This document shows, piece after piece, positions 45,793 to 56,206 of a DNA stretch of 64,000 nt. This stretch comes from Limosilactobacillus fermentum (GTDB lineage: Bacteria; Bacillota; Bacilli; Lactobacillales; Lactobacillaceae). The DNA lies in contig NZ_CP040910.1 in NCBI RefSeq assembly GCF_013394085.1, positions 1,722,767-1,786,766 of the forward strand. The letters are read 5' to 3'. The notes beneath the pieces were generated by a model, which saw only the letters and a list, made by a program, of their open reading frames with translations, was not told the origin of the DNA and ran no database searches. The first letter of the stretch is position 1. The number at the start of each line of letters is the position of its first letter. Position numbers and translations under genes: made by a program.

Positions 45793-45945
45793 CTTGTGAG
45801 CCGAATATCATCACGGATTTCGAACCACAATTTGCGTAGATAGGGACAACTTATTTGACCAACTGAAATTGTAATCAAACAGCGGTCGTCTAATTACCAA
45901 CGCCTTTTATGTCCCCAGGTTGCCATAGGGACAGATAAGCTAGGC
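45793..45945 (-). ncRNA. Candidate omega-RNA region at the tnpB 3' end
   Basis: By analogy with other IS605-type TnpB systems, the guide RNA derives from the 3' end of tnpB and the right-end hairpin. No sequence motif proves this; the region is noncoding, AT-rich and ends in the CCACTGAC / GTCAGTGG hairpin. Confidence 0.3.
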
Positions 45946-47190
45946 TAGTTTAGCTATTCCCTTATCAAGAATGTTTTTAGCTGCGTTCCAGTCACGAATA
46001 TGGTGAATACCACAGTTAGGACAAGTCCAGTTTCTATCATCTAATGTTAGTTTGTCCGTCCCATTAGTGCCCATTACAAAGCCACAATCGCGACATGTTT
46101 GGGTAGTATTTCTTGGGTTGATTGTGATAAATTGACGCCCATAAAGCTTTGCTTTATAAGCCAACATGCCAAGAAATGTTCGCCAGCCAACGTCAGAAAT
46201 ACTAAGTGCCAAAGCATGATTTTTAAGCAAATTCTTGCTACGCAACTCCTCGGCTACTACTAAATCGTGGTTCTTGATTAATGCGGTAGAAATTTGTTGG
46301 AGAAAATTATGCCTTTGGTTCATTACCTTGGCATGGAGTTTAGCGACTAACAAGCGCTGTTTTTGATAATTTTTACTATCTCGTAAAGAACGATGTTCTT
46401 TTTTTGCACGTTGTTGCCGTCTAGATAAAATGCGCTGTTCTTTGGCTAATTTGCCTTTAATAGTGCGGTAATATCGTGGATTAGGAACTATGTTGCCTTC
46501 ACTGTCGGTTAAGAAGTTATCAGTATTAAGATCAATTCCAACATGTCCATGAGTAGCTTTGGACACTTTAACAAAAGATTCATCTGAAGCTAACTGCATT
46601 GATAAAAAGAAGCGATCCGCTGAATCTTTAGTCAACGTCACGGTACCAATTCTAGTCTCGCATATTCTTTTCAAAAGCCGTGCTTGCGAACCGGCAACAC
46701 GTAACAGTCCTATTTTAGGTACTTTGACATGACTATTATCTAGAAAACAGACTGTACCGTTAGTTAGCAACGCAGTTTTTTGCCCCGGGTATTGACAATT
46801 GGTTTGATACCGCCAGTGATAACTCTTTCGATGAAATTTGGGAACGCCAGTGGCGTGAACCTTCCGAAAAGCATTCCAAGCTTTTCGATAGTTCTGAATG
46901 GCATTAGCTTTCGTCAAACTATCAATTCGTTTATCTTCTAAGAATTGATAGTGATTAGACATTTGCTTAGCGTTTTGGCGCATAGTTAGTTGCTTAATAC
47001 GATCCTGAACTATGTCAATCGGTAGCTTAACTCTGCGAAGCTGCATCAGTTCCTTATTGATCGCAACCATTTCGTTATAGATAAAGCGACTAGCGTCACT
47101 GTTGATTTTAATCAACTGCTTTTGTTGGTCACTAGGATAGCAGCGCATTTTTAGGCCATAATGATATTCCATTTTTGCCATTGACTTCAT
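45940..47190 (-). CDS. tnpB: TnpB RNA-guided endonuclease of IS605-type element
   Basis: A 416-residue TnpB. RuvC catalytic residues are visible: Asp in HVGIDLNTDNFL, Glu in DLVVAEELRSKNL, Asp in HHIRDWNAAKNIL. The zinc finger is TCRDCGF ... WTCPNCG. The N-terminal helical domain starts YHYGLKMRCYPSDQQKQL. It appears complete. ATG 47190 follows AAAGGAGG. TnpB nucleases promote retention of the element at its donor site. The 3' end abuts the element's end, where the guide RNA should be encoded. Confidence 0.9.
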   Translation of the reverse strand: MKSMAKMEYHYGLKMRCYPSDQQKQLIKINSDASRFIYNEMVAINKELMQLRRVKLPIDIVQDRIKQLTMRQNAKQMSNHYQFLEDKRIDSLTKANAIQNYRKAWNAFRKVHATGVPKFHRKSYHWRYQTNCQYPGQKTALLTNGTVCFLDNSHVKVPKIGLLRVAGSQARLLKRICETRIGTVTLTKDSADRFFLSMQLASDESFVKVSKATHGHVGIDLNTDNFLTDSEGNIVPNPRYYRTIKGKLAKEQRILSRRQQRAKKEHRSLRDSKNYQKQRLLVAKLHAKVMNQRHNFLQQISTALIKNHDLVVAEELRSKNLLKNHALALSISDVGWRTFLGMLAYKAKLYGRQFITINPRNTTQTCRDCGFVMGTNGTDKLTLDDRNWTCPNCGIHHIRDWNAAKNILDKGIAKLA

Positions 47191-47208
47191 TTGATTTCAC
47201 CTCCTTTA

Positions 47209-47239
47209 TTGACATGATAACATTATATCATGATGTCAA
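47209..47239. promoter_or_regulatory. Divergent tnpA/tnpB promoter region with inverted repeat
   Basis: TTGACATGATA and TATCATGATGTCAA form an imperfect inverted repeat whose arms each include a -35-like TTGACA facing opposite genes. Confidence 0.45.
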
Positions 47240-47263
47240 TGTATTAACAAAGGAGAGCATATT

Positions 47264-47719
47264 ATGACTAAAGAAAAAATCAAAGATGCCATTTATACTC
47301 GTCGTTATATCTATAATTTCCATTATCATTTGATCTGGGTAACTAAGTATCGCAATCAGACTTTTACAACCGAGGTCTTATCTAACGAAATGAAAGCTAT
47401 CTTGCAGCAAGTTGCAGATGACAATGACATCGTAATCGAAAAGATGGAAGTCATGCCGGATCACATTCATATGCTGATCAGTTTTCCGCCAAGCAAAGCT
47501 CCGGCTAGTGCCATTAAGGCGCTCAAAGGACGTAGTGCCTATATTTTTTTACAGAATCATCCAGAAATACGATGTAGCCAATATTGGGGCGGTCATCTTT
47601 GGTCGCCGAGTTACTATATGAGTACATTGGGCAATATGAGCAAAGAAGTTGTCGAGAAATATATCAATAACCAAAAATATACAGAAACAAACAAAAAGCC
47701 CCATAAAGGGGCTCAATAG
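47264..47719 (+). CDS. tnpA: IS200/IS605-family Y1 transposase TnpA
   Basis: A 151-residue HUH single-strand transposase. The HUH pair is in VMPDHIHMLISFPP and the catalytic tyrosine is likely in VVEKYINNQ. Length is typical of complete TnpA. AAAGGAG precedes the ATG. It moves the element as single-stranded DNA using the terminal hairpins. It is divergent from tnpB with a shared promoter region. Confidence 0.92.
   Translation: MTKEKIKDAIYTRRYIYNFHYHLIWVTKYRNQTFTTEVLSNEMKAILQQVADDNDIVIEKMEVMPDHIHMLISFPPSKAPASAIKALKGRSAYIFLQNHPEIRCSQYWGGHLWSPSYYMSTLGNMSKEVVEKYINNQKYTETNKKPHKGAQ
47697..47714 (+). terminator. Hairpin over tnpA stop
   Basis: AGCCCC-TAAA-GGGGCT hairpin overlapping the last codons of tnpA, preceded by A5 but without a T tract. 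Weak terminator candidate. Confidence 0.35.
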
Positions 47720-48766: not shown

Positions 48767-49405
48767 ATGAAAAACTTCATCTTCGACGTTGACGGCACCC
48801 TGATCAACACCTACGAAATGTACATGCCGGCCATGATTGACGTCTTGGCCAAGTACGGTTACACCTACTCGCCAGAAGAGGCCGAACGCATGAAGCACGA
48901 CCTCTTTGGAATCACCGGTAAGGACGCCCTGGTCATCTCCCAGATCCCGGAAGACCAGCACGAGGCAATTTTAGCCGACTGGTTCAAGCTCTCTTACGAA
49001 CGCGAGGACCGGACGACGATCTTCCCGGGCGTAGAAGACACGCTGGCCAAGTTAGCCAACCGGCCGGGAACGTCCCTAGCCGTGGCGACTTCTAAGTTAG
49101 GCGCCGAATACCAAGAACACATCGCCGCTAAGTTTGCCTTTGCCAAGAACTTCAAGACGGCGGTCACCTTTGATGACGTCAAACACGGTAAGCCGGCCCC
49201 GGACATGATCCAAGTCGCCTTAAAGCGCCTGGGTAACACCGACTTAAGCGAAGCCGTTTACGTCGGTGACACGGTTAACGACCTGCTAGCCGCCCACGCC
49301 GCCGGGATCAAGTTTGCCGCCGCTTTGTACGGCTCCGGCGATAAGGATAAGCTGGCCGACGCCGACTTCATGCTGACTTCCCCTGAACAGTTGTTGGATT
49401 TATAA
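48767..49405 (+). CDS. HAD family hydrolase (phosphoglycolate phosphatase-like)
   Basis: A 212-residue HAD phosphatase. Motif I FIFDVDGTLINTYEMY (nucleophile Asp), motif II VATSK, motif III KPAPDM lysine and motif IV VYVGDTVNDLLAAHAAG. An alpha-helical cap lies after motif I. Substrate not deducible. A GGGG site precedes the ATG. It is likely cotranscribed with pepI. A hairpin repeat begins 4 bp after its stop. Confidence 0.87.
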   Translation: MKNFIFDVDGTLINTYEMYMPAMIDVLAKYGYTYSPEEAERMKHDLFGITGKDALVISQIPEDQHEAILADWFKLSYEREDRTTIFPGVEDTLAKLANRPGTSLAVATSKLGAEYQEHIAAKFAFAKNFKTAVTFDDVKHGKPAPDMIQVALKRLGNTDLSEAVYVGDTVNDLLAAHAAGIKFAAALYGSGDKDKLADADFMLTSPEQLLDL

Positions 49406-49409
49406 AAAG

Positions 49410-49530
49410 AAGTGCGACCCAACCGTAAAGCAGGCCGTAGGCTAAGGATAGGACGGGGGTTGACGCCCTCCCTGGCGTCGTTCTCCGGCCAGACTTAGCC
49501 ACTAGGCCTGCGGTTGGGGAGCACGTTATC
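49410..49530 (+). repeat. Intergenic hairpin repeat, full copy after HAD gene
   Basis: GAAGTGCGACCCAACC ... GCGGTTGGGGAGCACGTTATC; outer arms CCCAACC/GGTTGGG, GCAGGCC/GGCCTGC. A terminator follows 12 bp later. Confidence 0.88.
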
Positions 49531-49542
49531 TCTGTAACATTC

Positions 49543-49727: not shown

Positions 49728-51464
49728 ATGTACGATTACCGCCAGGACTTACAAACCGTCCTGAACAGCTTTGGGAGCCAAGCCCCCGAGCTAACCAACG
49801 GACCAGCCGCCTTGCGCGCGCTGGCGAACCTGATTGAACAAACACTCACGAAAACTACCGCAGACGCTAGTGCTCCGGCAACAGAAACGGTCGCCACGCC
49901 ACCGGAGGCTAACGTTACCCCAGTTGAGGAGGACCAGCCAGAAGCGGCGCCGGAACCAGTTGCCGTGACGCCGGAACCAGAGGCCACCCCAGCCCCATCG
50001 TTAAACCAACCCACGGGTCAAGACGACCTTGAACCAGTCAAATACAGTGGCGAACAGTTCAGCGCCCACCAAACCATCAAAAACCTGATCCTGGATTTTG
50101 ACGGCTGCCTAAACCAGCTGGTCAAAGATCCCCTGGCCACGGTGGACTTTGATCCGGTGGAAAAACGGCTCACCGCCCTAATTGACGACCTGAGCAAAGA
50201 AGACCAGGAAGCCCTGGCCGGCGAACTAGGCCTGGCTAAGAGCCATTTAAAGCGGCTCAAAAAGGTGACCGCCAGCCTGCACGGCGCCATCACCAACTTG
50301 GTCAAGGAGCAGGCACCAACGGCGGAGCCAACAGACGCGCCGGAAGTTAAGGAAGCCACCCCAGCTAAAACGGACAACACCGCAGTTAACGAGGCGCCGG
50401 TAAGCCCAGCGCCAGCCAAGCCTGCCTCAACGGCGCCAGCGACTCCTTCACCGGCCGCCAAGTCCGCCCCGGCAGAACCCAGCTTTGCGGAACTGTTTGC
50501 CGCTTCAGTCGCCAAAGAGGAACGCCAGGCGGCTAAGCGACCACGCTTAAAGGCCCACCACTACCTCGTACGGCGGCAACTGAATGGGGCCATGCTGATG
50601 GACGCCGATCACCAAGATATCGAACACATCACCGAACCGCTTGTCCGCCAGTTTGGCATTCAACACGGTGACGAAGTGGTCGCCACACCCGGCCACCGCG
50701 ACGGCACCCTACTAATCAAGAAGGTGGTGGGGCACGCTAAGGACGTGCCGGCTTCTACCATTGCCACCTTCGGGTACGGGAAGGTCGAAAAGCTGGGTCC
50801 GGGCCAACTGGTCGTCCGCCAAAACGTTAGCGGCGCTCCCCTCGTCATCAATGGCCAACAGACGAGTTACCAAGTGGAAACGCTTAGTATCGAACGGATG
50901 GAGATCAACGAAGGCTCCATCGTTGAACTAGCCTGGTACACGGGGCAACCCGCCGACGTTAACCCCTTTGAACCCCACATCCGTTGGCACTACCCGGTCG
51001 AAGCTAGTGCCAAGCCAACGATCGCCAGTCAAATCCGGCAGGCAAAACCGGCGCCAAAACAAGTTGCCAAGCCCAAACCAGCGGCCAAGCCGACTTACGA
51101 CCTGGACCTGAAGGGGAAAAAGGTCGCCATCATCGTGGGGCGCGGGCAAAACCACGTCCTCTTTGAACGGATCGTCAAGCGTTACAACGGTAAGCCACGG
51201 ATTGTGGATAGCTTTATTCCCAAAAAGCGCCTGATGGAACGCCAACTTAAGGGCGTCGACCTGATTGTGATGATCGCCGCCTACAGCAAGCACGCCACCT
51301 CCTGGTCGGCCGCCGAGATTGCCAAGAAGTACGACCTGCCGTTTACCAATACCTCCTCATTTTCCGTCCAGTCCTTTGAACGGGCCCTCTACCGGGCGGC
51401 GATGGGGATGCGGGCCTACGAACCGGGTGGTACCGATCAGGCAGACTACCGGTTAAGTAAATAA
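49728..51464 (+). CDS. DUF2325 domain protein with proline/alanine-rich linker
   Basis: A 578-residue protein. The N-terminus (YDYRQDLQTVLNSFG) leads into a long Ala/Pro/Glu/Thr-rich linker, a helical segment (SAHQTIKNLILDFDGCLNQLVKD), a second Pro/Ala linker and a basic middle domain (RLKAHHYLVRRQLNGAMLM). The C-terminal 100 residues are DUF2325: KKVAIIVGRGQNHVLFERIVKRY, then LIVMIAAYSKHATSWSAAEIAKKY. The function is unknown. I chose ATG 49728, preceded by GGGAGG. No operon partner. It is followed 0 bp later by a hairpin repeat and then a terminator. Confidence 0.75.
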   Translation: MYDYRQDLQTVLNSFGSQAPELTNGPAALRALANLIEQTLTKTTADASAPATETVATPPEANVTPVEEDQPEAAPEPVAVTPEPEATPAPSLNQPTGQDDLEPVKYSGEQFSAHQTIKNLILDFDGCLNQLVKDPLATVDFDPVEKRLTALIDDLSKEDQEALAGELGLAKSHLKRLKKVTASLHGAITNLVKEQAPTAEPTDAPEVKEATPAKTDNTAVNEAPVSPAPAKPASTAPATPSPAAKSAPAEPSFAELFAASVAKEERQAAKRPRLKAHHYLVRRQLNGAMLMDADHQDIEHITEPLVRQFGIQHGDEVVATPGHRDGTLLIKKVVGHAKDVPASTIATFGYGKVEKLGPGQLVVRQNVSGAPLVINGQQTSYQVETLSIERMEINEGSIVELAWYTGQPADVNPFEPHIRWHYPVEASAKPTIASQIRQAKPAPKQVAKPKPAAKPTYDLDLKGKKVAIIVGRGQNHVLFERIVKRYNGKPRIVDSFIPKKRLMERQLKGVDLIVMIAAYSKHATSWSAAEIAKKYDLPFTNTSSFSVQSFERALYRAAMGMRAYEPGGTDQADYRLSK

Positions 51465-51583
51465 GAAGTACGACCCAACCTCCTCGACAGGCTGTATGAC
51501 TAAGGATAGGACGCAGGTTAGCGCGTCAGCGATGTTCTGCGGCCAGACTTAGGTACTAGGCCTGTGGTTGGGAGCACGTTATC
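51465..51583 (+). repeat. Intergenic hairpin repeat, full copy after DUF2325 gene
   Basis: GAAGTACGACCCAACC ... GTGGTTGGGAGCACGTTATC, starting on the base after the stop. Inner arms CGCAG / CTGCG. Confidence 0.87.
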
Positions 51584-51691: not shown

Positions 51692-52642
51692 CTAAAAATC
51701 ATAATCCTCATCGGACATCGCCTCGGCGTTGCCCATCAAGTAGCCGGCCCCAACCTGGGAGAAGAAGTCATGGTTGGCCGTCTCCGTCGAGATCCCGTTC
51801 ATCACGATCGGGTTAATGTCTTCAATGGCGGCGTGGTTAAAGATGGCGGCAAAGCCCATGTTGTTCATCGCCTTATTGGCGTTGTAGCGGACGAACTGTT
51901 TGACATCCTCGACCATCTGAATGGGAGCGTAAACGACCTCGGTAAAGGCGAACTCGTTTTCCAACAGGTCAGCTAAGAGGTCATCCATCCAGGCCCGGAA
52001 GCGGGTTTGCTCATCCGGGGTCAGTTCGGCAAAGGCCTGTTGGAACTTGTAACCCAGGTAGGTACCGTGGACCGATTCGTCTCTGATCACCAACTTGATG
52101 ACCTCTGAAAGGTTGGCCAACTTGTTGTTACCCCGGTACCACAGCGGGGTGAAGAAGTTGGAATAATACAAGATCCCCTCCAAAAAGACCGAAGCAACCT
52201 TTTTTTCTAGGTTATTGCCATTTTGGTAAATCTCGTTAATGCGACGAACCTTGTATTGCATCCGCGGATCATTATTCATCCAGTGAAAGGTATCGTCAAT
52301 CGTCTTTTGATCGTTTAAAGTGCTCAGGATCGTCCCGTAACTCTTGGCGTGGATCGATTCCATCATCAAGAAATCGTTGATCACGCCAACTTCCTTGCGG
52401 GTCCGGGCGTCCTCTCGCATCACGTTGACCCCCTCTTCTGACTGCAGGGTATCAAGCAAGGCCAAGCCCCCGACGACCTTATTGATGACCCCCTTTTCAC
52501 TGTCGGTTAGGGTTCGCCAATCGCCGCGGTCGTTTGAAACCGGCACCCGGGTGTCCAGCCAGAACTGGGCGGTTGCCTTGTCCCAGACGTATTCGTCAAA
52601 TTCGTCTTCTTCGACGTTCCAATTTACGCTTGTATAAGCCAT
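51692..52642 (-). CDS. nrdF: Class Ib ribonucleotide reductase beta subunit (catalytic)
   Basis: A 316-residue radical-generating subunit. All expected residues are present by family alignment: Asp64 (ALLDTLQSEEG), Glu95 and His98 (MMESIHAKSYGTIL), radical Tyr102 in the same motif, Glu155 (FLEGILYYSNFF), Glu189 and His192 (IRDESVHGTYLGYKF). The C-terminal tail MSDEDYDF binds NrdE. It assembles a di-metal (Mn or Fe) cofactor with NrdI and passes the radical to NrdE. Last gene of nrdI-nrdE-nrdF'-nrdF, 9 bp after nrdF' with a TAGGAGGAG site. Confidence 0.95.
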   Translation of the reverse strand: MAYTSVNWNVEEDEFDEYVWDKATAQFWLDTRVPVSNDRGDWRTLTDSEKGVINKVVGGLALLDTLQSEEGVNVMREDARTRKEVGVINDFLMMESIHAKSYGTILSTLNDQKTIDDTFHWMNNDPRMQYKVRRINEIYQNGNNLEKKVASVFLEGILYYSNFFTPLWYRGNNKLANLSEVIKLVIRDESVHGTYLGYKFQQAFAELTPDEQTRFRAWMDDLLADLLENEFAFTEVVYAPIQMVEDVKQFVRYNANKAMNNMGFAAIFNHAAIEDINPIVMNGISTETANHDFFSQVGAGYLMGNAEAMSDEDYDF

Positions 52643-52651
52643 TGTCTCCTC

Positions 52652-53572
52652 CTAAAAATCGTAATCGTCATCGCTCATGAACTCGGTGGCGTCGGCGTCT
52701 TTGATCGTTTCAACCACCACCGTTTCCTGAGCTTGATTTGCCAGTTGATCGATTTGGTGGGCTACCGGGCCACTTTCGGCTGGTTGTTCACCCAGGCCAA
52801 GGGCCACTAAGAGCATCCGCCACTGGAAGTCAACCAAGTCGTTAGCCGCCCCGGCGTCTTCTAACAGGGCCTCGTTTTGCTGGTGGGCGAGCTTGATTAA
52901 CGATTGGGCACCCTTCGTTAGTTGCGCTACCAGGGCCTCTTGTTTCGCAAAGGGCAGCTCAGCTATCCCCTGGCGGAATTTGTAAGCCAGGTAATCACGA
53001 AAGATCAGGTTCCCGGTCAAAATATTTTTCAGCATTTGGTTAGTTTGGGCCAGGGCCGGCTGGGTCAGGACCGCCCAGTCAAAACCGGCACACAGGACCG
53101 TGTCGGCGATCAAAAAGAGGCCGCGGCGCATTAGGTCGTCTCCTTCAATTCCCTTCGTTAAGTCGATCAGCGCCGCTTGAAGAGGTGCCTGACCGTCAGC
53201 CCAAGCGTAATAAGCAGCGGTGGTTTCTTCATCGGTCAAGCGGCGGAAGATCGTCGTCACCGCCTTGGTGTGGACCGACTCCATGAAGGTGATCAAGTTT
53301 AAGACCGCCTCTTCTTGTTGGGTCCGCCGTCCCGCCCGTAGGCTCGGCGCCCCCAGTTCGGACTGGAAGGCGCTCAAGAGGGCCCGGCCGGCTAGGGCGT
53401 GCCCCACTTGGGCTTGTTGCTGCGCCGTCAGGGCGTGCCAGCTAGGTTGATCGTCGGTAATCGGCACCCGGGTGTCCAACCAGAAGTTATTGGTTAACTT
53501 TAACCAGGTGGCTTGGTCGACCTGGTCTTCTTGTTCGTCCCAGTTAATTGCCTTGTAGTACAAGTAATCCAT
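52652..53572 (-). CDS. Divergent NrdF-like subunit lacking radical Tyr and metal ligands
   Basis: A 306-residue paralog of the neighbouring NrdF. It aligns without gaps over WLDTRVP, then ALLSAFQSELG, MESVHTKAVTTIF, and with a short gap to RDYLAYKFRQG. Changes at catalytic positions: Asp64 to Ser67, radical Tyr102 to Val105, Glu189 to Asn188, His192 to Phe191. Glu98 and His101 remain; the third Glu may be Asp157, depending on gap placement. The tail MSDDDYDF is almost identical to NrdF's NrdE-binding tail. It cannot build the normal cofactor. By analogy with yeast Rnr4 it may form a beta-beta' dimer or regulate NrdE (inference). The frame is intact, with AAGGAGG on the nrdE stop. Confidence 0.85.
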   Translation of the reverse strand: MDYLYYKAINWDEQEDQVDQATWLKLTNNFWLDTRVPITDDQPSWHALTAQQQAQVGHALAGRALLSAFQSELGAPSLRAGRRTQQEEAVLNLITFMESVHTKAVTTIFRRLTDEETTAAYYAWADGQAPLQAALIDLTKGIEGDDLMRRGLFLIADTVLCAGFDWAVLTQPALAQTNQMLKNILTGNLIFRDYLAYKFRQGIAELPFAKQEALVAQLTKGAQSLIKLAHQQNEALLEDAGAANDLVDFQWRMLLVALGLGEQPAESGPVAHQIDQLANQAQETVVVETIKDADATEFMSDDDYDF

Positions 53573-53582
53573 TGCTTCCTCC

Positions 53583-55748
53583 TTAAATCATGCAGGATTC
53601 ACACTCGTTGGCGGTGTGAATTTCGTCGTCGGTGGTAAAGGTCCGAATGTAGTACAGCGACTTGATCCCCTTGGTCCAGGCATAGTTACGCAGCCGGTTT
53701 AGGTCGCGCGTCGTCATCTTGGGTTGGTCAGGCTTTTTCCACTCGTACAGGCCGGTCGGCAAGGTCGAGCGCATAAACAGGGTTAGGCTCATCCCCTGGT
53801 CGACGTGTTTTTGGGCCACGGCGTAGGTGTCAATGATCTTGCGCTGGTCGAGGTCGTAAGCCGGCGTGTAATAAGGCAAAGTCTCGTTGGAAAGATACGG
53901 GGCGGGATAAAAGAGTGCACCGACCTTGTTTTCCTGGCGCTGTTCCACCAGTTGGGTGATCGGCGTCAGCGAGGCTGAAGTTTCGTTAACGTAAGAAATC
54001 GAGCCATTCGGCGCCACCGCCAGCCGGTTACGGTGGTACAAGCCATCCGTTTGCACCGCTTCTTTTAAGGCTTGCCAGTCGGCCGTCGTCGGCAGGTGAA
54101 CGCCTGAAAAAGCAGCCCGGTTCTTTTCAAACTTAAGGGTGAAGGGCTTAGTCACGTAGTCGTCAAAGTAAGAACCATCGGCGTAACGCGAGTCTTTAAA
54201 ACCCGCGAAGGTCTCGCCCCGTTCCTTAGCAATCTGGTGGCTGGCCAGAAGCGAGTAGTAATTCAGGGCTAAGAAGTAGGCCTCGGTAAACTCGAGTGCC
54301 TCCGGGGAGCCGTACTCAATCTGCCGGCGGGCCAGGGCGGTGTGGAGGCCCATCGCCCCCAGGCCGATCGTGTGGTAGAGGCGGTTGCCCTTAGCAATGC
54401 TAGGGACCTCCTCAATGTTGGTGGTGTCAGTGACGTTGGTCAGCGCCCGCACCGCCACTTCAACGGCACGGCCAAAGTCCGGGGCCTGCAGCATGTTATC
54501 GATGTTGGTCGAGCCCAGGTTGCAAGAAATATCGGTGCCGACCGTTTCGTAAGACAGGTCGGACGTCAAAGTCGACGGTTCCTGGGGCTGGAGGATCTCG
54601 CTGCAGAGGTTGGACATGATGATCTTACCGGCGACCGGGTTGTCCCGATTGGCGTGATCGATGTTTAAGATGTAGGGGTAGCCCGATTCCTGTTGGAGGC
54701 GGGAAATCTTTTGCTCCAGCTCGCGGGCTGAAATCGCCGTCTTCTTGATCCGCGGGTTGGCCACCAGGCGGTCGTACTCCTTGGTCAAATCAACGTAGGA
54801 AAAGGGGGTCTTGAGTTCCCGCTCGACGTCGTAGGGGCTAAATAAATACATTGGGGCGTTGGACTTGAGCAACTGGTAGTACTTGTCTGGCACCACCAGG
54901 CCCAAGGAGAGGGTCTTGACCCGGATCTTTTCGTCGGCATTTTCCTTTTTGGTCTCCAAAAAGGCCATGATATCAGGGTGAAAGACGTTTAAATAAACCA
55001 CCCCGGCGCCGTTACGTTGCCCCAGCTGGTTGGAATAAGAAAAGGCGTCCTCTAACAACTTCATCACCGGCAGGACCCCAGACGAGGCGTTTTCGATCTT
55101 CTTAATCGGGTCACCAGCCGCCCGCAAGTTCGACAAGTTGACGCCAACGCCGCCACCAATCCGGGACAGCTGGAGAGCCGAATTGAGCGCCCGACCAATC
55201 GATAGCATCGAGTCCTGGACGTCAATCAAAAAGCACGACACCATCTGGCCGCGCCGCTTCTTACCGGCGTTTAAAAAGGTGGGCGTCGCCGGCTGGTAGC
55301 GCTGATTAATCAACTCGTCGGTCAGGTCCTTGGCTAACTGTTGGTCGCCGCGGGCCAAGTAGAGGGCGTTGGCCACCACCCGGTCGTTATAGTCCTCCAG
55401 GAATCGCTTACCGTCGTTGGTCTTCATCGCGTACTGGGCGTAAAACTTGTAAGCCCCCATGAAGCTCTTAAAGCGGAAGTGGTGGGCGCGCACCCGGGCC
55501 TCTAATTGGTCAATGAATTCCGCCGGGTACTGGTCGAGAACCGCCCCGTCCAAGTAGTCGTCAGCGACCAGCTTCGCCCGCCGTTTTGCGGGGCTTTGAA
55601 AGCGAACCGTTTGGGGAATGATGTGGTCTTTAAAGTAGGCCTTTAAGGCGTCCTGATCGTAATGGACGGCAATTGAGCCATTTTCCGGGATGTTAACTAG
55701 ATTGTTGTAGTAAAAATAGGATTGTGGATCCGTTCGTTCTTCCGTCAT
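53583..55748 (-). CDS. nrdE: Class Ib ribonucleotide reductase alpha subunit
   Basis: A 721-residue catalytic subunit that reduces ribonucleoside diphosphates. Visible: FLNAGKKRRGQMVSCFLIDVQDS and SRIGGGVGVNLSNLR, MSNLCSEILQPQEPS (active-site Cys pair partner and Cys/Glu), YNLxxxL-type IDIDNM region, VAPNGSISYVNETSASLTPI, and the C-terminal CESCMI shuttle cysteines. There is no long ATP-cone, as expected for NrdE. The ATG overlaps the nrdI stop (ATGA). No nrdH is seen in this operon; the redoxin must be encoded elsewhere. Confidence 0.95.
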   Translation of the reverse strand: MTEERTDPQSYFYYNNLVNIPENGSIAVHYDQDALKAYFKDHIIPQTVRFQSPAKRRAKLVADDYLDGAVLDQYPAEFIDQLEARVRAHHFRFKSFMGAYKFYAQYAMKTNDGKRFLEDYNDRVVANALYLARGDQQLAKDLTDELINQRYQPATPTFLNAGKKRRGQMVSCFLIDVQDSMLSIGRALNSALQLSRIGGGVGVNLSNLRAAGDPIKKIENASSGVLPVMKLLEDAFSYSNQLGQRNGAGVVYLNVFHPDIMAFLETKKENADEKIRVKTLSLGLVVPDKYYQLLKSNAPMYLFSPYDVERELKTPFSYVDLTKEYDRLVANPRIKKTAISARELEQKISRLQQESGYPYILNIDHANRDNPVAGKIIMSNLCSEILQPQEPSTLTSDLSYETVGTDISCNLGSTNIDNMLQAPDFGRAVEVAVRALTNVTDTTNIEEVPSIAKGNRLYHTIGLGAMGLHTALARRQIEYGSPEALEFTEAYFLALNYYSLLASHQIAKERGETFAGFKDSRYADGSYFDDYVTKPFTLKFEKNRAAFSGVHLPTTADWQALKEAVQTDGLYHRNRLAVAPNGSISYVNETSASLTPITQLVEQRQENKVGALFYPAPYLSNETLPYYTPAYDLDQRKIIDTYAVAQKHVDQGMSLTLFMRSTLPTGLYEWKKPDQPKMTTRDLNRLRNYAWTKGIKSLYYIRTFTTDDEIHTANECESCMI

Positions 55749-56206
55749 GCTTGTTCCTCCTCAAAGGCCTGGGACCGTTCCAGTAGCAGTTGGCCGATCC
55801 GGGTGATGTCGTTGTCGCTGCCCCGTAGTTCAAAGTCGGTCAGGTAGGGAAAACCGAACCGCTTGGCGTACTGCTTAGCCGTCAGGGCGAACTGGCGGTT
55901 AAAGTTACGGTTACCGCTGCCGATGATCCCGTAACAGCGGTGGTAGTTGCCTTCGTAGGCGAGGTAGTGGCCCAGCGCCGGTGATAGAATCTCGCTGTAG
56001 CCGTTATCGCGACCGTTGCCACCGTTTAAAAAGGCCGGCAAAATCGTCACGAAGGGCGCCGTCAGTTTTTGGCGGTCCGGTTTCTCACGGACGTTAATCG
56101 AATTCACCACCACCCCCAGGTCTTGGTAGTAGTCCGTTAAGCGCCGCACAAAATCTCGGGTGTTGCCACTCAACGAGATATACAAGATATTGATTTCTTT
56201 AGCCAT
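55745..56206 (-). CDS. nrdI: NrdI flavodoxin for class Ib RNR activation
   Basis: A 153-residue flavodoxin-like protein. It supplies the oxidant for the Mn2-tyrosyl cofactor of NrdF. The FMN phosphate loop is LYISLSGNTRDFVRRL, and YGIIGSGNRNFNRQFALTAKQYA is the second NrdI signature. It starts the operon and overlaps nrdE by 4 bp (ATGA). The promoter with a palindromic NrdR-like box is immediately upstream. Confidence 0.93.
   Translation of the reverse strand: MAKEINILYISLSGNTRDFVRRLTDYYQDLGVVVNSINVREKPDRQKLTAPFVTILPAFLNGGNGRDNGYSEILSPALGHYLAYEGNYHRCYGIIGSGNRNFNRQFALTAKQYAKRFGFPYLTDFELRGSDNDITRIGQLLLERSQAFEEEQA

Follow-up and report, generated by a model that had tools for sequence, protein, structure and literature searches.

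A predicted non-catalytic NrdF-like subunit linked to a remodeled NrdF in an accessory, often plasmid-borne ribonucleotide reductase operon

The window analyzed here is a 64,000-nt stretch of Limosilactobacillus fermentum DNA (contig NZ_CP040910.1, positions 1,722,767 to 1,786,766 of the forward strand). Its minus strand carries a ribonucleotide reductase (RNR) operon with the gene order nrdI-nrdE-nrdF′-nrdF, in which every start codon lies near or overlaps the preceding stop codon. The components of the operon are as follows:

51692–52642, minus strand: companion nrdF, with six metal ligands, radical Tyr, W28, D188 and C-terminal tail, and a remodeled second sphere (residue alignments)
52648–52653, minus strand: Shine-Dalgarno sequence AGGAGG of nrdF, overlapping the nrdF′ stop codon
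52652–53572, minus strand: nrdF′, encoding a 306-aa NrdF-like β′ predicted to be non-catalytic (ORF, Pfam, NCBIfam, AlphaFold model)
53578–53584, minus strand: Shine-Dalgarno sequence AAGGAGG of nrdF′, overlapping the nrdE stop codon
53583–55748, minus strand: nrdE, class Ib α subunit, 721 aa (TIGR04170, 1063 bits)
55745–56206, minus strand: nrdI, activating flavodoxin, 153 aa (PF07972, 4.4e-33)

The first-pass annotation of this locus described nrdF′ as a clean frame with a strong ribosome-binding site, situated between nrdE and nrdF, and the present analysis bears out each of these points: the minus-strand ORF 52652–53572 is open over 306 aa, AAGGAGG stands ahead of it, and its neighbors are as stated. 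Strong Shine-Dalgarno sequences precede nrdE and nrdF as well, and only 9 nt separate the nrdF′ stop from the nrdF start. A scan of the whole window for NrdR boxes with a consensus sequence gave no matches, and promoter and terminator scans stayed near shuffle level (4 versus 2.6 and 6 versus 6.6 expected, respectively).

The surroundings of the operon have some features of their own. An Ala/Pro-rich ORF whose C-terminal domain is DUF2325 (49728–51464) is convergent with it; L. gorillae lacks this ORF at the corresponding position. An IS200/IS605-type pair (45940–47719) is found some 4 kb away from the operon, and in it a TnpB-like ORF (OrfB_IS605, with a Cas12f1-like TNB domain) diverges from a Y1 transposase. 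An intergenic repeat of about 125 bp at 49405–49540 is predicted to form a long hairpin (−74.9 kcal/mol, z −6.7); it has at least 64 matches in the 1.89-Mb genome, some of them short or tandem (40 of the 137 candidates were scored), and none in Rfam. A by-eye lookalike at about 51465–51580 stands outside these 64 matches.

By profile searches, NrdF′ is an R2 homologue. It matches Pfam Ribonuc_red_sm at 1e-23, compared with 6.3e-80 for the neighboring NrdF, and the NCBIfam class Ib β models match it below their cut-offs; for TIGR04171, the class Ib NrdF model, the score is 137.6 bits against a cut-off of 355, the neighboring NrdF scoring 434.4. An AlphaFold model of NrdF′ computed from a 28-row alignment (mean pLDDT 87.7, pTM 0.83) matches R2 structures in the PDB, class Ib NrdF on top, with TMq of 0.77–0.82 and TMt of 0.73–0.88 among the 50 matches listed; this agreement is partly built in, because canonical NrdF rows sat in the input alignment. 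It should be noted that in three annotated records inspected the protein is called simply “ribonucleotide-diphosphate reductase subunit beta.”

The residues that distinguish NrdF′ from its neighbor in the window are encoded at the following sites, each identified in alignments:

53372–53374, minus strand: codon of S67, which replaces a metal-ligand Asp (D64 of the neighbor)
53258–53260, minus strand: codon of V105, which replaces the radical Tyr (Y102 of the neighbor)
53000–53014, minus strand: codons of G187–F191, with D188G, E189N and H192F relative to the neighbor (alignments including phmmer)
52655–52678, minus strand: C-terminal tail MSDDDYDF, a predicted NrdE-docking peptide whose Tyr is conserved in 20 of 20 representatives

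Several alignments, including a phmmer alignment to Streptococcus sanguinis NrdF, agree on the replacements D64 to S67, Y102 to V105, D188 to G187, E189 to N188 and H192 to F191. They include the four losses that had originally been read by eye, as well as the retained tail; the by-eye alignment had been described as gap-free, which was incorrect, since NrdF′ and its neighbor align with 12 gaps in 209 columns. E155 is conservatively replaced by D157, and E95 and H98 persist as E98 and H101. Three of the six metal ligands are thus lost in the window NrdF′, with one further conservative change. D188 is the radical-transfer Asp of this family, in which W28 and the tail Tyr also take part in radical transfer.

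These losses recur throughout the family. In 20 representative NrdF′–NrdF pairs, every NrdF′ is an open reading frame of 305–317 aa that has lost D64 and D188 and has retained W28 and the tail Tyr, whereas every companion NrdF has kept W28, the six ligands, the radical Tyr and D188. Seventeen of the 20 NrdF′ resemble that of the window in having lost E189 and H192, the latter being replaced by Phe in 16 and by Tyr in one. The other three, from Lactococcus and Enterococcus faecium plasmids (two of them near-identical), have lost H98 and retain E95, Y102, E155, E189 and H192. At positions D64-E95-H98-Y102-E155-E189-H192, the window protein reads S-E-H-V-D-N-F and a common plasmid type A-K-H-C-E-S-F (residues at 155–159 were taken from larger alignments, one small alignment being gapped there). 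Among 30 distinct NrdF′, the position of the radical Tyr is occupied by Cys in 11, Tyr in 11, Val in three, Ile in two, Phe in two and Thr in one; ligand position 95 is Lys in 18, and Asp188 is lost in all 30.

Residues of the NrdI channel are missing as well. In the R2b of Bacillus cereus, the available text describes Lys263 and Asn267 as lining a superoxide channel from NrdI (PMC9462851). The corresponding Lys257 and Asn261, mapped by numbering offset and motif, are found in 20 of 20 companion NrdFs and 10 of 10 other NrdFs, and in none of 20 NrdF′. Measured against an active class Ib NrdF, then, NrdF′ has neither the ligand and Tyr set nor the NrdI-channel residues, and shares with it the modeled R2 fold and the tail Tyr. 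Judged by its residues, NrdF′ would have neither a complete metal site nor a radical-competent set, which is less certain for the Lactococcus type. Complete loss of metal is not certain, because the window protein keeps three potential ligands and the Lactococcus type keeps four of six plus the Tyr.

The companion NrdF, which retains all catalytic residues, appears by sequence to have a rebuilt radical pocket. The 29 distinct companions are set apart from all 51 other distinct NrdFs (from Lactobacillaceae, Enterococcus, IMG/VR contigs and Mycobacteriaceae) at eight positions, given here with the residue of the others in parentheses: A61 (Thr), F91 (Ile), G103 (Ser), L106 (Phe), I157 (Phe), Y159 (Phe), N162 (Gly) and V185 (Ile), the exceptions among companions being one Val at 157 and one Ile at 185. 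Five solved NrdFs and four further Bacilli NrdFs match the 51 at positions 61, 103, 106, 159, 162 and 185, and have Ile or Met at 91 and Phe or Tyr at 157. The companion signature is given as A61, G103, L106, I157, Y159, N162 and V185, which is absent from the 51 other distinct NrdFs. Two candidate positions were dropped from it: 97, at which Ile also occurs in three of the four further Bacilli NrdFs, and 57, a less clear-cut position at which the same four NrdFs have Leu. One position of the signature is encoded at the following site:

52166–52168, minus strand: codon of Y159 of the companion NrdF, a position at which all 51 other distinct NrdFs compared have Phe

Position 159, four residues past ligand E155, we take to be Phe208 of E. 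coli R2, and V185 to be Ile234. In E. coli R2 both residues are part of the hydrophobic pocket around the radical Tyr; a variant engineered to carry F208Y reportedly self-hydroxylates to DOPA. NrdF′ keeps the ordinary residues at several of the positions compared (Val at 97 in 30 of 30, Ile at 185 in 28 of 30 and Phe at 106 in 26 of 30), and the two copies have thus diverged along separate lines.

The two genes travel together. NrdF′ was detected in 26 of 396 Lactobacillaceae genomes, spanning 11 of 40 genera (E ≤ 1e-45), and the companion NrdF (at least 75% identity) in the identical 26 genomes. The next NrdFs, at 59–61% identity, occur in five genomes, and in the four of these that were inspected no NrdF′ stands beside them. 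An NrdF′ ORF lies within 1.5 kb upstream and on the same strand in 73 of 74 companion-NrdF ORFs, and 0 of 61 other NrdF ORFs share a locus with an NrdF′ ORF; these are counts of ORFs in which overlapping loci recur, and hence not independent events. The exception, K259, has a truncated nrdF and neither nrdE nor nrdF′ in a 12.8-kb stretch.

Within the genus, close NrdF′ relatives were found in two of 50 genomes, that of the window and one other (G016, 81% identical); the remaining matches, at 31–37% identity, are at the level of ordinary NrdF. The nearest named relative by the nrd locus is L. gorillae, in which neighboring genes are largely those of the window, minus the downstream DUF2325 ORF; in these two species, which share the flanking genes, the operon is therefore a shared chromosomal locus. 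L. alvi has an NrdF′ at 46% identity in the same gene order. NrdF′ occurs in 8 of 395 genomes sampled at order level and in 1 of 299 at class level, where the carrier is the window genome itself; the class-level threshold (E ≤ 1e-85) could miss the Lactococcus type, so that the distribution is a lower bound.

Plasmids are the richer source. NrdF′ is present in 168 plasmid records (E ≤ 1e-42), with hosts in Lactiplantibacillus (113), Latilactobacillus (30), Pediococcus (14), Enterococcus (5), Levilactobacillus (4), Lacticaseibacillus (1) and Lactobacillus (1). A megablast search with one plasmid nrdF′–nrdF pair returned 167 records, 161 of which hold at least 80% of the pair in one place; the remaining six include K259 and a record in which the match crosses the record start. 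All three plasmids inspected for the divergent Lactococcus type, pGdh442, pGR17 and pGR0507-29, carry it (L126:5651–6604, L128:4120–5073 and L129:5041–5991), at 25–27% identity to the window NrdF′. In this type other ligands are broken (D64, H98), a Crp/Fnr-type regulator gene adjoins the operon, and the gap between nrdF′ and nrdF is wider (211 bases in pGdh442; 927 in pGR17, where a thiol peroxidase gene is annotated in the gap). A related NrdF is carried by 31 Lactococcus records; a 2010 survey, in the part available, lists pGdh442 with NrdE, NrdF and NrdI (PMC3019208). Among viral contigs, the full four-gene operon was present in one of three loci (L117, an 82-kb contig), the other two having ordinary NrdF. 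In a search for a phage origin of NrdF′, 342 phage records matched; the 30 of these listed are at 29–34% identity, and none of the 30 covers the C-terminal tail. NrdF′ is a member of a widespread, often plasmid-borne family, and its recurrence as the same gene in the same place across genera and plasmids makes it more than a chance occurrence.

The operon is moreover not the only RNR of its hosts. A second nrdE, 59–64% identical to that of the window, is present in 29 of 29 carrier genomes searched, and the nrdF′ operon is for this reason taken to be an accessory RNR. In the window genome the second set consists of nrdE-nrdF at 387–390 kb, preceded by an nrdH-like ORF (by eye), and its NrdF has a different, extended tail. 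These resident genes (387–391 kb, L125) have no adjoining nrdI; the second nrdI of the genome is found at a distance from them, at 1869 kb (L131). The plasmid-borne family, the second nrdE and the remodeled companion NrdF had all gone unseen in the first-pass annotation.

NrdF′ is under purifying selection. Pairwise dN/dS for nrdF′ is 0.07–0.21 by NG86 (nine pairs that share sequences and are thus non-independent) and 0.14–0.30 by YN00 (eight pairs, the Lactococcus pair being omitted), with dS close to saturation or beyond it in the most distant pairs; for nrdF the values are 0.02–0.11 and 0.03–0.16, respectively, so NrdF′ evolves faster than NrdF. A ratio near 1 or frequent disruption had been named at the outset as evidence that would count against a maintained partner. 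The ratios lie well below 1, and the one disrupted copy inspected also has a truncated nrdF; together with the fixed gene order and the co-occurrence with one NrdF clade, this upholds the suggestion that NrdF′ is maintained. A pseudogene is contradicted by the same ratios and by open frames, an open nrdF′ standing upstream of 73 of 74 companion ORFs.

In a maximum-likelihood tree of 50 rows, companion NrdFs form a single clade (100/99). The NrdF′ sequences sit on long branches and give weak support to a single origin (79/62; 83% of bootstrap trees). Most simply, the pair would go back to a single ancient duplication at the root of the companion clade, after which neither gene is seen alone except in the truncated K259. 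Two plasmid-type operons within one plasmid group (L082 and L063) differ at 118 nucleotides in nrdF′ and at nine in nrdF, from which it seems that some such operons exchanged nrdF′ independently of nrdF; fine matching of nrdF′ to nrdF is therefore not strict.

The reading that we favor, and consider rather probable, is that NrdF′ serves as an obligate β′ without catalytic activity in an accessory RNR that derives from class Ib and is often borne on plasmids, and that it most likely forms β-β′ with the companion NrdF. Its basis is a set of sequence-level features, namely lost catalytic residues, a conserved tail, a modeled R2 fold, linkage to one NrdF clade, purifying selection and the second nrdE. 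NrdF and NrdF′ would pair as a β-β′ dimer, in which the radical tyrosine, the NrdI channel and the metal site (dimanganese or diiron) would all reside in NrdF alone, the subunit that would pass the radical to NrdE. NrdF′ would give the other half of the dimer and a second tail presumably docking NrdE. NrdF would depend on NrdF′, which probably stabilizes it or aids its cofactor loading, as Rnr4 does for Rnr2. Pairing with NrdF′ instead of with itself or with the resident NrdF may also keep the accessory enzyme separate beside the resident class Ib RNR.

A bolder extension, which we regard as possible and put forward tentatively, concerns the chemistry of the companion. The enzyme would be an obligatorily asymmetric bacterial β-β′ RNR in which the companion pocket, with Tyr at the site of E. 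coli Phe208, uses altered radical chemistry only when paired with NrdF′; the alteration might consist of a second redox-active or hydroxylated Tyr, or of another metal or oxidant, and plasmids would spread the enzyme as a back-up RNR for aerobic conditions.

Two roles outside the β-β′ arrangement are each unlikely. As a maturation factor, NrdF′ would help NrdF in metal loading or radical formation, or would hold NrdI or NrdE in assembly, without being part of the working holoenzyme. The place of nrdF′ between nrdE and nrdF with overlapping or close signals is compatible with this, as are its linkage to one NrdF clade and the altered pocket of the companion, which might need help; yet a pure NrdF maturation factor would have no need of the NrdE-docking tail kept in all 20 representatives, and the NrdI-channel residues are lost from NrdF′. 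Slightly less likely again is a decoy or brake, namely a dead homodimer or subunit that fills the tail-binding site of NrdE and limits dNTP synthesis by the accessory or the resident RNR. A dead site together with an intact docking tail, in cells with a second nrdE, is what such a brake would look like. A brake would, however, be expected to vanish readily from plasmids, yet the 74 companion ORFs include no intact companion NrdF without NrdF′; moreover, linkage to a single NrdF clade suggests that the partner is NrdF and not NrdE alone, and in the window genome the resident NrdF ends in a different tail.

That NrdF′ has a chemistry of its own, resembling class Ie and based on a site with one metal or none, for example with Lys in place of a Glu ligand, is improbable. 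The frequent Lys at position 95 and the Tyr102 kept in 11 of 30 speak for it; nevertheless, with the Tyr position so variable there is no conserved radical residue, Asp188 and the NrdI-channel pair are lost throughout, and the pattern is unlike that of class Ie. Least probable of all is a decaying duplicate retained by hitch-hiking, as the long branches and the weakly conserved C-terminal third might suggest, against which stand the open frames of all 20 representatives, the low dN/dS, and the conserved blocks and tail.

If the β-β′ reading holds, a conserved bacterial β′ would be a small, easily expressed system in which to ask why a dead half helps the other, the question raised by yeast Rnr4, and would allow a direct test of half-of-sites behavior. 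The companion NrdF, with Tyr where 51 of 51 others have Phe, is a natural experiment in radical-pocket tuning. From the operon's spread among plasmids carried by food bacteria, it would appear that a second aerobic RNR has a role on which selection can act.

Searches, with most subscription journals outside their scope, returned no published bacterial description of such a dead/active NrdF pair. Class Ib RNRs are described, in the text available, as two homodimeric subunits (PMC3303829), and the accessible portion of a class I review mentions no bacterial β′ (PMC8463856). NrdF′ resembles class Ib NrdF (R2b) in its modeled fold, N-terminal half, W28 and C-terminal tail, and differs from it in having no complete metal site, no D188 and no NrdI-channel Lys/Asn, the radical Tyr being mostly gone as well; the companion NrdF differs in its rebuilt radical pocket despite having all catalytic residues.

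R2 proteins of classes Ic and Id need a complete metal-ligand set, and the lost ligands exclude NrdF′ from both. These classes use a metal-centered oxidant, according to the part of the review available (PMC8463856). Class Ie has in common with NrdF′ that metal ligands of an NrdF relative are replaced. As far as the accessible text goes, three Glu ligands are exchanged there (QSK or VPK), with Asp, both His and Tyr retained, and a 2025 survey of GTDB counts QSK and VPK NrdFs, the VPK form occurring in Lactobacillales (PMC11846895). The window NrdF′ has lost the Asp, one Glu, one His and the Tyr, a mismatch with the class Ie pattern so described (PMC11846895), and the distinction drawn from the outset between NrdF′ and class Ie is sound. 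Class Ie is moreover its own radical source, with Tyr as DOPA, whereas NrdF′ is partnered by a fully liganded NrdF.

The closest parallels are eukaryotic, and NrdF′ is likely a bacterial variant of the dead/active β pairing known there, with a heterodimer as the likely form. Apicomplexan R2_e2 (PfR4) is likewise a divergent R2 without key radical residues, reported, in the portion available, to form α2-β-β′ with PfR2 in Plasmodium; this eukaryotic class Ia protein keeps the six metal ligands with few exceptions (PMC3824934), whereas NrdF′ lacks several of them. Yeast Rnr2-Rnr4, described in the available text as a β-β′ RNR (PMC4245953), belongs to class Ia, and here too an R2 paralogue unable to assemble the cofactor is kept beside an active R2. 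In both respects NrdF′ appears, by sequence, to be Rnr4-like, less certainly so for the Lactococcus type. Unlike Rnr4, NrdF′ is closest to bacterial class Ib NrdF, resides in an nrdIEF operon that is often on plasmids, and belongs to an accessory RNR.
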